From Candidatus Pacearchaeota archaeon (GTDB lineage: Archaea > Nanobdellota > Nanobdellia > Pacearchaeales > GW2011-AR1), in assembly GCA_023139205.1 (NCBI GenBank), contig JAGLOA010000008.1, positions 1-37,482 on the forward strand: a stretch of 37,482 bases of DNA, given 5' to 3'. Shown here piece by piece: positions 856-7,862 of this stretch. Made by a program: the position numbers and the translations under genes. The notes below the pieces were generated by a model that saw nothing but the letters and a program-made list of their open reading frames with translations, was not told the origin of the DNA and searched no databases. The stretch's first letter is position 1; each line of letters opens with the position of its first letter.

Positions 856-1265
856 TAAAAATTGCTGTTAGTGGATATTTTGATCCGATTCATAGGGGGC
901 ATATTGAATATTTGAAATTGGCAAAAGAATTAGGAGATAAATTAATTGTTATTTTGAATAATGATAGACAAGTATTATTAAAAAAAGGGCAGGCTTTTAT
1001 GCCTTTAGAAGATAAGAAAATAATCTTGGAAGCAATAAAATATGTTGATGAAGTTTTTGTGAGTATTGATGAGGATAAAAGTGTCTGTAAATCTCTTGAA
1101 GCAGTAAAGCCAGATATTTTTGCGAATGGTGGAGATAGATATCATACTGAAATTCCTGAGGCAAAGATCTGTGAAGAGCTTGGGATAGAAATAGTGGATG
1201 GGTTAGGAGAGAAGGTTCAATCTTCTTCTAATTTAATTAAAAATTTTGGGAAAAAAGAAAAATGA
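852..1265 (+). CDS. cytidylyltransferase-like nucleotidyltransferase (FAD synthase / glycerol-3-P cytidylyltransferase type)
   Basis: [32 protein letters not shown] is a HxGH-type nucleotidyltransferase fold; 4-nt overlaps with both neighbours. Confidence 0.8.
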
Positions 1266-4200
1266 CCCCAATTAATGAAGATATAAAAGAAATGAGGGAA
1301 TCTGAAAAGGGAGTTTTTGATACAGAAGTTTCTGGAGAAATGAAAAAGGCGTATTTAGATTATGCAATGTCTGTTATTGTTTCCAGAGCAATTCCTACAA
1401 TTGAAGATGGGTTGAAACCTGTTCAGAGAAGGATTTTACATTCGATGAATTTGATGGGATTAAAACCAAATACTCAAACAAAAAAAAGTGCTAGAATTGT
1501 TGGAGATGTTATTGGTAAGTATCATCCTCATGGAGATTCTGCTGTTTATGATGCTATGGTTAGAATGGCTCAAACTTTTTCTTTAAGATATCCTTTGGTT
1601 TATGGTCAGGGAAATTTTGGTTGTTTCACGGCAAATACAAAAGTTAAACTTACAGACGGTAGAAATTTATCTTTTGTGGATTTAATACAAGAACATAAAA
1701 AAGGAAAAAGGAATTTTACATTTACTATTGATGATAATTTGATAAAAATTGCTGAAATAAAAAACCCAAGAAAGACTATAATAAATGCAAAAATTATGAA
1801 AGTGATTTTAGATAATGGCGAGGAAATAAAATGCACTTTGAATCACAAGTTTATGTTAAAAAGCGGTGAATATAAAGAAGCAAGAAATTTAGAATCTGGA
1901 GATTCTTTAATGCCCTGTTATTCTAGACTTTCTGCTAAAGATGATGATCCAAAAACAATTGGATATAAGATGGTTTTCCAGCCTCAAACAAAAGAATGGA
2001 AATTTGTTCATATTCTTTCAGATAATTGGAATTTAGAAAAGGGTATTTATGCAAAACCTGCTGGAAGAATAAGACATCATGTTGATTTTAATAAATTAAA
2101 TAATAATCCAGATAATATCAGAAGAATGCATTGGAAAGAACATTGGCAGACTCATTATAATTTTACTTCTATGAAACACAAAACTGATCCTGAATATAGA
2201 AAAAAATTAGCAGAAGGGAGAAAGAAATTTTGGGATAATCAAAAAAATAGAGAGGATTATTCTAAGAGAATGACTGAAAGAAATTTAAAAAATTGGAAGA
2301 AAAAAAATTATAGGGAGAAAATGATTGTAACATTAAGTGAAGTTAATAAAAAATATCTTAAAGAACATCCAGAAAGAATAGAGGAAATTAGAAAAACAGC
2401 GTCAATTACAATGAAAAGGATGTGGACAATTCCAAAGTATAGAAAACTTTTCAATGAAAAAATTATTGCTGTAAATAAAAAGAGAAAAACTAATTTAACA
2501 GGGAGAAAGAAATTTATAACTATTTGTAATTACTTAAAAAATAATTGCCTTCTTTTGAATGAACAAAATTATGAAGAGGTAAGAGAAAAAATATTTAAAA
2601 TAAAAAGTTTTACAAGTTGGGGTTTAGGAATTAAAAAATATTTTAATAATGATTTAAATTTATTGTTATGCGAAATAAATCAAAATCATAAAATTGTTAA
2701 AACTGAATTTTTAAATGAATCTGCTGATGTTTATGATTTAACTATTGATAAGACTCATAATTTTGCTTTAGCTTCAGGAGTTTTTGTTCATAATTCAGTT
2801 GATGGTGATCCTGCTGCGGCTTACAGATATACTGAGGCTAAATTAATGCCAATTTCTTCTGAGCTTATTCAGGATATTGATAAAGAAACTGTTAAGTTTT
2901 CTCCTAATTTTGATAATTCTTTAAAAGAACCAGAGTTACTTCCTGGAAAACTTCCTACCTTGATGTTAAATGGAGCTACAGGTATTGCTGTGGGAATGGC
3001 TACAAATATTCCTCCGCATAATTTAAGAGAGGTTTGCGATGCTATTATCTCTTATGTTAAAAAACCAGAAATTACTATTGAAGAACTTTGTGAAATTGTT
3101 ACTGGTCCTGACTTTCCTACAGGAGGAATGGTTCAGGGGGATATGGTTGAATTGTATAAAACTGGAAGAGGAAGATTAATTTTAAGAGGAAAAGTTTCAA
3201 GTGAGACAGTTCATAAAAAAGAGGTTGTTGTTATTACTGAAATTCCTTATATGCTTAATAAATCTACTTTGGTTACTCAGATTGCTGGTTTAATTCAAAA
3301 CAAGAAGATAAAAAATATTTCTGATTTAAGGGACGAATCTTCCAAAGGTAAAATAAGAGTTGTTATTGAGTTGAAAAAAGGTATTAATCCTAATTTTGTG
3401 ATTAATTCTCTTTACAAATATACTCGTCTTCAGGATTCATTTAATGTTAACTTTCTTGCTTTGGTTGGAGGGCAGCCAAAAGTTTTGACTTTAAAGGATG
3501 TTGTGGAAGAATATGTTAAGTATAGGAAAAAGATAATTACTCTTAGAACAAAGTTTGAATTAAAAAAAGCTAAAGAAAGACAAGAAATTGTTGAAGGTCT
3601 TTTAATTGCTTTGAAAGATATCGATGAAGTTATAAATTTAATTAAGAAATCAAAAGGTAAAGTTGAAGCTATGGAAGGTCTTATTAATAAATTTAAATTA
3701 ACCAAGAAACAAGCAGAAGCTGTTCTTGAGATTAAATTACAACAATTAACTTCTCTTGAAGTTGATAAATTAAAGAAAGAAGCAGAAGAATTAAAAAAGA
3801 AGATTGCTGATTTAGAAAAAATTTTGGGAGATATTAAAGAAGTTTTGAAAATAATTGTTCGGGAAGTTAATGATTTAAGGTCTAAATATGGAGATCCAAG
3901 AAAGACTAATGTTTTGAAAAGGATTTCTGAAATTTCTGAAAAAGATTTGATTCAAAAGAAAGAAGTTGTTGTTACTATTACTGATAAAGGATATTGCAAG
4001 AGAATGGATGTTCAAACTTACAAGGAGCAGAGAAGGGGTGGAAGAGGAGTTATTGGAAGTAATTTAACTACAGGGGATTTTGTTAAGCAAATTATTACCT
4101 GTTCAACTCATGATTATTTGATGTTTTTTACCAGCAGAGGAAGAGTTTTATGGTTGAAAGCTTATGATATTCCTGAGTCTGAAAGATATAGCAAGGGTAA

Positions 4201-4879
4201 GGCAATAATTAATTTACTTAATTTAAAAAATGAAAAAGTTACAAATGTTATTTCAGTGAATAAATTTGATGGTTACTTATTTATGGCAACTAAAAAAGGG
4301 CAGGTTAAAAAAATTGCATTGAGTAATTTTTCAAAACCAAGAGCTTCAGGAATCAGGGCCATTAATCTTCCTCAGGATAATTCTGATGTTTTAATTGGTG
4401 TTGGGCTTTTAGATAAGAACCAGGAAGTTTTCCTTGCTACTAAAAAAGGAAAGGCAATTAGGTTTGATAATGAGAAAGTCAGGTCTATGGGAAGAGCAAG
4501 TTATGGTGTTACTGGAATTAAATTTGGCAAGGATGATGAAGTTGTTAGTCTTGAAATTTTAGATACTGAAGCTATTTTGACTATTACAAAAAAAGGTTAT
4601 GGTAAAAGAACTACTGTAAATGATTATAGAAAAACTGCCAGAGCTGGAAAAGGAGTTCTTAATTTGAAAGTTTCAGAAAAAACAGGGGAAGTTGTTACAA
4701 CTGTTTCAGTGAATAAAGAAGATAATATAATAATCACAACTGCAAAAGGAATGGTCATAAGAACTTCTTTAAAAAATATAAGGGTTATGGGAAGAGCTGC
4801 TCAAGGTGTTAGGATTGTTAAGCTTCAGCAAGGAGATTTTGTAACTGATTTGATTAAGGTTGTTAATGGGGAAGAGTGA
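1262..4879 (+). CDS. gyrA: DNA gyrase subunit A precursor containing an intein
   Basis: GyrA extein motifs [68 protein letters not shown], GyrA box QRRGGRG; interrupted after NFG by a 391-aa intein. Confidence 0.97.
1622..2794 (+). mobile_element. GyrA intein (391 aa) with HNH-like endonuclease insertion
   Basis: Begins with Cys ([18 protein letters not shown]), TLNH block B, ends [24 protein letters not shown] followed by Ser+1 ([15 protein letters not shown]). Central [23 protein letters not shown] resembles an HNH motif. Confidence 0.93.
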
Positions 4880-6385: not shown

Positions 6386-7147
6386 TTATATTATATTATT
6401 TTTCACATCACTTAATCTTTTCTTTGCAGTTTTATTATATTCTTCTGAAATATCTAAATGAATAAAATTCCTGTTATTTTTCGTTGATACAACTGCAACT
6501 GTTCCTGTTCCGCCAAACATATCTAAAACAGTATGCCCTTTAAATGAATAAAATTTCATCAAACGATAAATTAATTCTTCTGGAAATGGTGCTGGATGTC
6601 CATTTCTTTTTTTCTCTGGTGAAATTTTCCAATGACCATCAGAATATTCTTTGAATTCTTCAGAAGTGATATCGGCATCTTTTTTATCTCCTTCTAATTT
6701 ATCGCCATTTTTAGAAAATACTAAAACATATTCCCAAGAGGGAACAATATGAGGATTAGATGGGCTTTTCCAACTTCCCCAAGCAGTTCTTCTTAACATA
6801 GTTTGCTTGTACCAGATTATTTCTGTCCTAAATTTCATTCCCAACTTTCTTAATTGATTACTAAAATCATGATGAATTGGAGTAAAATTCTTTATTCCTG
6901 TTGGTGCAATGTTTAAACAAAATCTTCCCCCAGGCACTAAAACTCTTTGAGTTTCTTCCCATACTTTATTCAACCATTTAAGGTATTCCCCATAGTCCAT
7001 TTTATCGTGGTGATTATCATAATCTTTTCCTACATTATATGGTGGGGAAGTAATTGCAAGATGAATACTATCACTGGGTATTTGTTTTAGGGATTCTAAA
7101 ACATCTCCGGTTACGATCTTATTAAGAAATTTATTTTGTTTTACCAT
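6386..7147 (-). CDS. Type II DNA methyltransferase, beta-class, SPPY motif (likely N4-cytosine)
   Basis: Motif IV AITSPPYNVGKDYDN precedes motif I VLDMFGGTGTVAVVSTKNNRNFIHLDIS; overlaps the restriction enzyme gene. Confidence 0.9.
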   Translation of the reverse strand: MVKQNKFLNKIVTGDVLESLKQIPSDSIHLAITSPPYNVGKDYDNHHDKMDYGEYLKWLNKVWEETQRVLVPGGRFCLNIAPTGIKNFTPIHHDFSNQLRKLGMKFRTEIIWYKQTMLRRTAWGSWKSPSNPHIVPSWEYVLVFSKNGDKLEGDKKDADITSEEFKEYSDGHWKISPEKKRNGHPAPFPEELIYRLMKFYSFKGHTVLDMFGGTGTVAVVSTKNNRNFIHLDISEEYNKTAKKRLSDVKNNII

Positions 7148-7862
7148 CTTGTTCAACTAATTTTTTTATATCTTCAAATAAATCATCAATGTCTTTAACT
7201 TTATCAGTTTTTTCAAAATCTTCTCTCGCCATATACATTCCATCTAATTCGTATTCCAAGATAACTCTTGTTTTCTTTGGACCTCTTGCACCAATAATTA
7301 CGTTTACTTCGTTATCTTTATCTGGAGTAACCATGAAAACTTTTATGTGTTTTGTAATTTGATTTTCTAAAAGTTTAAGTTTCCAGTAAGTTGTTTCAAA
7401 TCCTCTTTCTCTAAATGAGTTTTTCACAGAAAGCACACAATAAATTCTTACTTTTTCTTCTTTCTCATTATATCTGTAAACAATTATATCAGCATCAGGC
7501 AAGAATGAATATTCCTTGAAATGAATTTCAAGCATCCTTCTTACCAAATCTTTTTCTCTTGAAAGATTATTGCTTCCTAATTCTGCATCTTTTATTAATT
7601 TAATATCTGTTCCTTCAAATAATTCTTCAAGAATGACCATCACTAATCTTTGCAACGAATGTCCTACAAATGTTCTCCAGGATTGTCTTGCTTTATTATG
7701 TGCTGAATCTCTTTGTAATCCTGTTCCAATTAATTCTTTAGTTTTTTCAATTAAATATTCTTTTTTAATTTCTTCAAAGAATTCATCTATTTTAGAGAAA
7801 GATTTATTTTTATACTTCTCCTTAAAATCATGAAATTTAGTTTTTATATCTTCAAAGTCCAT
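7131..7862 (-). CDS. Type II restriction endonuclease, BsaWI / CCGG-family-like
   Basis: RDSAHNKARQSWRTFVGHSLQRLV and LPDADIIVY...VLSVKNSFRERGFETTYWKLKL (PD...SxKxSFRER, as in CCGG-family enzymes); translationally coupled to the methyltransferase. Confidence 0.75.
   Translation of the reverse strand: MDFEDIKTKFHDFKEKYKNKSFSKIDEFFEEIKKEYLIEKTKELIGTGLQRDSAHNKARQSWRTFVGHSLQRLVMVILEELFEGTDIKLIKDAELGSNNLSREKDLVRRMLEIHFKEYSFLPDADIIVYRYNEKEEKVRIYCVLSVKNSFRERGFETTYWKLKLLENQITKHIKVFMVTPDKDNEVNVIIGARGPKKTRVILEYELDGMYMAREDFEKTDKVKDIDDLFEDIKKLVEQDGKTK

Follow-up and report, generated by a model that had tools for sequence, protein, structure and literature searches.

Gyrase subunit A is a textbook intein host, and its mycobacterial intein GyrA-a is inserted at the RY|T site, which we take to be Y122|T123 in Escherichia coli numbering. 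An intein allele of gyrB has been described in haloarchaea and bacteria, and the available part of that haloarchaeal survey includes gyrB among the intein alleles and contains none in gyrA (PMC4071816). The dCTP deaminase intein of cyanophage CL131 self-excised in E. coli (PMC6293099), and phage-type HNH enzymes have elongated DNA-binding regions (PMC3943268). One intein-containing GyrA family was matched in NCBIfam (NF038098, GyrA_w_intein); because it aligns to a double-intein GyrA (L051) through the second of the two inteins, which lies at RY|T, we assign this family to that site. The protein studied here scores 808 bits against it, below the cut-off of 1850. In the literature searched, which covered only a minority of subscription papers, neither the NFG|S site nor a GyrA intein of HNH type was found described, and the accessible part of PMC9348778 states neither an insertion site nor a nuclease.

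The window (the whole analysed stretch of 37,482 nucleotides) belongs to a small DPANN archaeon whose 720 kb genome is assembled in 21 contigs. Its gyrA open reading frame (1262-4879, forward strand) scores above the cut-offs of NF004043 and TIGR01063 and encodes 1205 aa with the intein and 814 aa without it. The 391-aa intein (CFTANT...GVFVHN; 1622-2794, forward strand) occupies codons 121-511 in frame and without a stop, between an N-extein ending in VYGQGNFG (1262-1621, forward strand) and a C-extein beginning with SVDGD (2795-4876, forward strand), exactly where the first-pass annotation had placed it. The splice junctions proposed there are also exact: the Cys1 codon lies at 1622-1624, the terminal His-Asn pair at 2789-2794 and the Ser+1 codon, TCA, at 2795-2797. 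The insertion falls presumably between G110 and S111 of the E. coli protein, 11 residues before what we take to be the catalytic Tyr122, and thus, as had been claimed, 12 residues upstream of the mycobacterial site. The GC content of the intein is 25%, compared with 31-34% for the gyrA exteins.

The splicing domain is split between residues 1-99 (1622-1918, forward strand), which hold Cys1 and the block B TxxH motif T72-H75 (1835-1846), and residues 353-391 (2678-2794, forward strand), which end in His390-Asn391. The Hint part of the profile search proposed in the first-pass annotation gave a clear match to Pfam Intein_splicing (E 3e-23), and the models of the intein termini (TIGR01445 and TIGR01443) both scored above cut-off. 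In the AlphaFold2 model (pLDDT 85 overall, 93-95 in the N-terminal part of the Hint domain) the Hint domain is followed by a strand-strand-helix unit and then by a series of long helices, and a Foldseek search with this model matched inteins in the PDB. In an alignment of 35 inteins, 17 from the gyrA site and 18 from a gyrB site, residues C1, T72, H75, D372, H390 and N391 are invariant. The element thus has the sequence and fold features of a class 1 intein: Cys or Ser at position 1, TxxH in block B, a C-terminal His-Asn, Cys, Ser or Thr at +1, and a Hint fold.

The window begins inside gyrB (2-541). The contig starts about 20 codons after the SAGG|SAK site of that gene, and the assembly lacks the N-terminal portion of gyrB; an intein at this site could have broken the assembly there. 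Further along the reverse strand, an open reading frame at 6386-7156 resembles a DNA methyltransferase (SPPYN and FGGTGT motifs), and a neighbouring one at 7131-7862 is a possible restriction partner.

We read the gyrA element as a mobile class 1 intein with an HNH homing endonuclease, with a probability of roughly 0.88; splicing, DNA cutting, the position of the cut and DNA binding by the repeats we infer from sequence and structural model. The gyrA precursor would be translated whole, and the Hint domain would then excise itself through an acyl shift at Cys1, aided by the block B His75, transfer to Ser+1, and cyclisation of Asn391 beside His390, leaving an active GyrA with NFG-SVDG rejoined beside the catalytic tyrosine. 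The basic helical repeats would hold the HNH domain on DNA; its target would be the GQGNFG|SVDGD codons of intein-less gyrA, which it would nick or cut, and the intein would be copied in during repair off the occupied allele. This reading draws on the sequence anatomy, the invariance of key residues, purifying selection, the patchy occupancy of a single site, a case of flank-free transfer and a codon signature.

The central nuclease proved to be of the HNH-like type proposed in the first-pass annotation. Within its core (residues 150-178; 2069-2155, forward strand), H152, H153, N161, N165, H174 and H178 are invariant in all 35 aligned inteins, and the motif is present in every one of 74 full-length relatives inspected, having been recognised by a pattern in 73 and by eye in the remaining one. 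The window protein matches PF13392 (HNH_3) at E 0.031, below the curated cut-off of that model, and matches were obtained for 24 of the 35 relatives at E<=1 (best 1.4e-4) and for 13 of 17 isolated HNH cores at E<=0.1 (best 2.4e-4). The model places strands at 150-153 and 166-169 and a helix at 171-181. The assignment to the HNH family is based on the motif, on weak profile matches across many members and on the topology of the model, in which the His-Asn-His motif lies in a predicted beta-beta-alpha fold. A profile of the HNH core matched none of the solved HNH structures, and the central domain folded alone gave a model too poor for use (pLDDT 66.5). Pfam scans of the window intein and 35 members returned no LAGLIDADG family, in keeping with the earlier failure to see such a motif, and with no match to it or to another nuclease fold these alternatives were rejected. 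In pairs with measurable dS, dN/dS ranged from 0.06 to 0.19 for the HNH core and from 0.10 to 0.15 for the repeats, with similar values in the Hint part; judged from these ratios, selection on the nuclease region is purifying.

The HNH core is followed by basic, helical tandem repeats of about 17-21 aa (residues 186-290; 2177-2491, forward strand) with a consensus of roughly W..PEYR.KMSE, a presumed DNA-binding array. Of the first-pass description, the basic tandem repeats stood and their likeness to NUMOD modules did not: a repeat model built from a few units, one of them from the window, found a median of 3 units in forms of 390-394 aa (0.2 in shuffled sequence, 0.05 in GyrA exteins), whereas Pfam gave no NUMOD match for the window intein, for 35 relatives or for two long variants. 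The number of repeats differs among relatives (6-8 units in forms of 466-481 aa and 8-11 in those of 523-525 aa), and extra repeats thus account for the length of the long forms. The charge, helicity and position of the repeats, together with the analogy to phage-type HNH enzymes, suggest that they bind DNA. The variants from 391 to 525 aa would then provide a natural series showing how HNH homing enzymes lengthen their grip on DNA.

The first-pass annotation had regarded an HNH intein in an archaeal gyrase as an unusual combination, a view that did not survive the survey of other genomes: the element recurs at NFG|S in numerous genomes of DPANN archaea and CPR bacteria, and related gyrB inteins are common. 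A survey covering the phylum of the host, Micrarchaeota and one CPR class turned up 42 distinct inteins of full length (390-394 aa) at exactly the NFG|S site of gyrA. Of these, 14 come from the 181 genomes of the host's own family, 6 from 371 sampled genomes in the remainder of its phylum, 8 from 245 Micrarchaeota genomes and 14 from 384 genomes in the class of Kaiserbacteria. Longer forms are found at this site in all three lineages. Reduced, nuclease-less forms of 147, 178 and 209 aa bring the occupied genomes of the own family to 17, and a 294-aa form occurs elsewhere. Ultra-small archaea and CPR bacteria therefore have one gyrase intein family in common. Some loci are more complex. Two GyrA proteins, L051:355-5340 (reverse strand, G085) and L149:2-4516 (reverse strand, G907), each contain two inteins 12 residues apart, one of HNH type at NFG|S and a LAGLIDADG-like one (440 and 433 aa, respectively) at the mycobacterial RY|T site. 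In L150:1197-5951 (reverse strand, G1098), the NFG|S intein is accompanied by another one upstream, at ARIVGE|C, a third GyrA site. The gyrA-site intein of L117 (G1088:C13:1340-2736) extends over two frames with an internal TAA and is either decayed or affected by a sequence error.

A sister HNH intein is found in gyrB at SAGG|S, where inteins of like architecture are common. Some nuclease-less inteins are chimaeras of the two types. In G070, the gyrB-site intein is gyrB-type over its first residues and its C-terminus but gyrA-type in between; in G172, the gyrA-site intein starts out gyrA-type and continues as gyrB-type. Gene conversion between resident gyrA and gyrB inteins would explain both. 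A 146-aa mini-intein with a mostly gyrA-type Hint domain was also observed in a RadA-like gene (L041:3184-3621, reverse strand, G139; GGNILGHA|...|STYRLYLRRGKQGSRV). A 98.9-kb contig from a viral collection encodes a GyrB with a 432-aa HNH intein at the gyrB site (L129:4001-5296), and represents either a virus with gyrB or mis-sorted cellular DNA.

The nuclease-less forms at NFG|S demonstrate that the nuclease can be lost, and one may ask whether the window element is itself a splicing-active but resident intein, inherited with its gene and equipped with a nuclease that is inactive or only weakly nicking. Vertical descent fits the comparison with G035, whose exteins are more similar to those of the window (82% identity) than are the inteins (75%), and from these sequences the window intein and its nearest kin do look vertically inherited. 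However, the window protein has kept its HNH residues, the dN/dS ratios of the nuclease region indicate purifying selection and the tandem helical region is open and conserved, and we consider a purely resident element unlikely. Domestication as a gyrase regulator acting by conditional splicing might be suggested by the proximity of the insertion to the active-site tyrosine and by the persistence of a reduced form in a few genomes; with no condition-dependent feature found and most relatives devoid of the intein (an exact empty gyrA site is present in 123 of the 181 own-family genomes), this appears highly improbable. The reading as a mobile homing intein is moreover supported by a pair of CPR genomes (G394 and G185) in which the inteins are 80-89% identical in DNA and the exteins on both sides only 63-69% (85% versus 58% in protein), a case of the intein moving without its flanks.

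The junction codon supplies a further line of evidence. Serine is encoded by two codon families, TCN and AGY, which cannot be interconverted by a single substitution. The Ser+1 codon is TCN in all 60 occupied gyrA alleles (17 from the own family and 43 others), and AGY in all 19 occupied own-family gyrB alleles. Empty own-family sites are mixed, with 64 TCN and 62 AGY in gyrA (Fisher p=3.3e-5 against occupied alleles; stratified by genus, p=4.4e-4) and 43 TCN, 34 AGY and 15 Thr in gyrB (p=2.7e-6; by genus, 4.1e-4), these p-values being guides, as species are not independent and the comparison was picked after inspection of the consensus. A negative control, the serine four codons upstream of the gyrB junction, gave no difference (p=1.0). 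Beyond the own family the gyrB rule weakens, with 15 AGY (two of them own-family loci) and 6 TCN, and most empty gyrA sites of CPR genomes have TCN, with at least 19 AGY among those listed. The simplest reading of these codons is an event at the DNA level, either target preference or co-conversion, and the contrast between TCN and AGY would then be a footprint of insertion; the signature could also stem from shared ancestry instead of target specificity. Co-conversion from the donor, rather than nuclease specificity, is a serious contender that we rate somewhat below even odds. Flanking bases are copied in homing repair, a single codon family is found in all occupied own-family alleles, nuclease-less ones included, and in the chimaeras the +1 codon follows the site and not the Hint type; but no flanking codon beyond +1 is comparably uniform in occupied gyrA alleles, and the converted tract would need to be very short. 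At the consensus level, the gyrA and gyrB target DNAs have no clear similarity.

The GyrA exteins of CPR bacteria and archaea are well separated, with the exception of one short row; that the two groups have homologous inteins at a single site thus implies transfer between domains at some time, in either direction and perhaps more than once. In approximately unbiased (AU) tests a single clade of CPR inteins was not rejected (p=0.15) and that of Micrarchaeota was borderline (p=0.055), and the interleaving of the CPR inteins L034 and L071 with those of Micrarchaeota in a quick tree is therefore only suggestive. Among viral contigs no relative was found at the gyrA site, and the sole relative on plasmids is a gyrB-site intein in Bernardetia. 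Six viral contigs (L131-L134, L138 and L141) carry relatives of the gyrA-site intein in RtcB-like genes (VGVDIG|CGM), and are a possible vehicle of spread. Taken together, one might tentatively picture related HNH homing inteins in the adjacent gyrA and gyrB genes of DPANN archaea and CPR bacteria that read opposite serine codon families at Gly|Ser (TCN in gyrA, AGY in gyrB), swap splicing-domain segments by gene conversion, have crossed between two domains of life and tune their specificity by the number of helical repeats, although in its entirety we find this scenario doubtful.

Among known systems, the own-family gyrB inteins at SAGG|SAK (431-432 aa) are similar in their Hint-HNH-helical repeat architecture, their Gly|Ser junction and all splicing and HNH residues, with 36-40% identity over the full length; they differ in gene and site, are 40 aa longer and, in the own family, have AGY instead of TCN at +1. 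RtcB-related inteins (NF052663) give a full-length profile match of 1e-36, and those of viral contigs L131-L134 are 32-41% identical to the window intein, but their host gene is RtcB-like, their +1 residue is Cys and their length is 334-369 aa. The CL131 intein (Hint plus HNH_3, 28% identity) and the Hint protein SP15_022 of Bacillus phage SP-15 (Foldseek full-length E 7.6e-27) both match over all 391 aa, at 27-28% identity for the two; these are phage-borne and reside in other host genes. The mycobacterial GyrA-a intein is likewise of class 1 and sits in GyrA near the catalytic tyrosine, but lies downstream and is of LAGLIDADG type where RY|T inteins were seen here (L051 and L149). By its site and its HNH-repeat nuclease, we regard the NFG|S intein as a new allelic class within a familiar kind of element, adding to a classical intein host gene an apparently undescribed insertion site that is occupied in many genomes.
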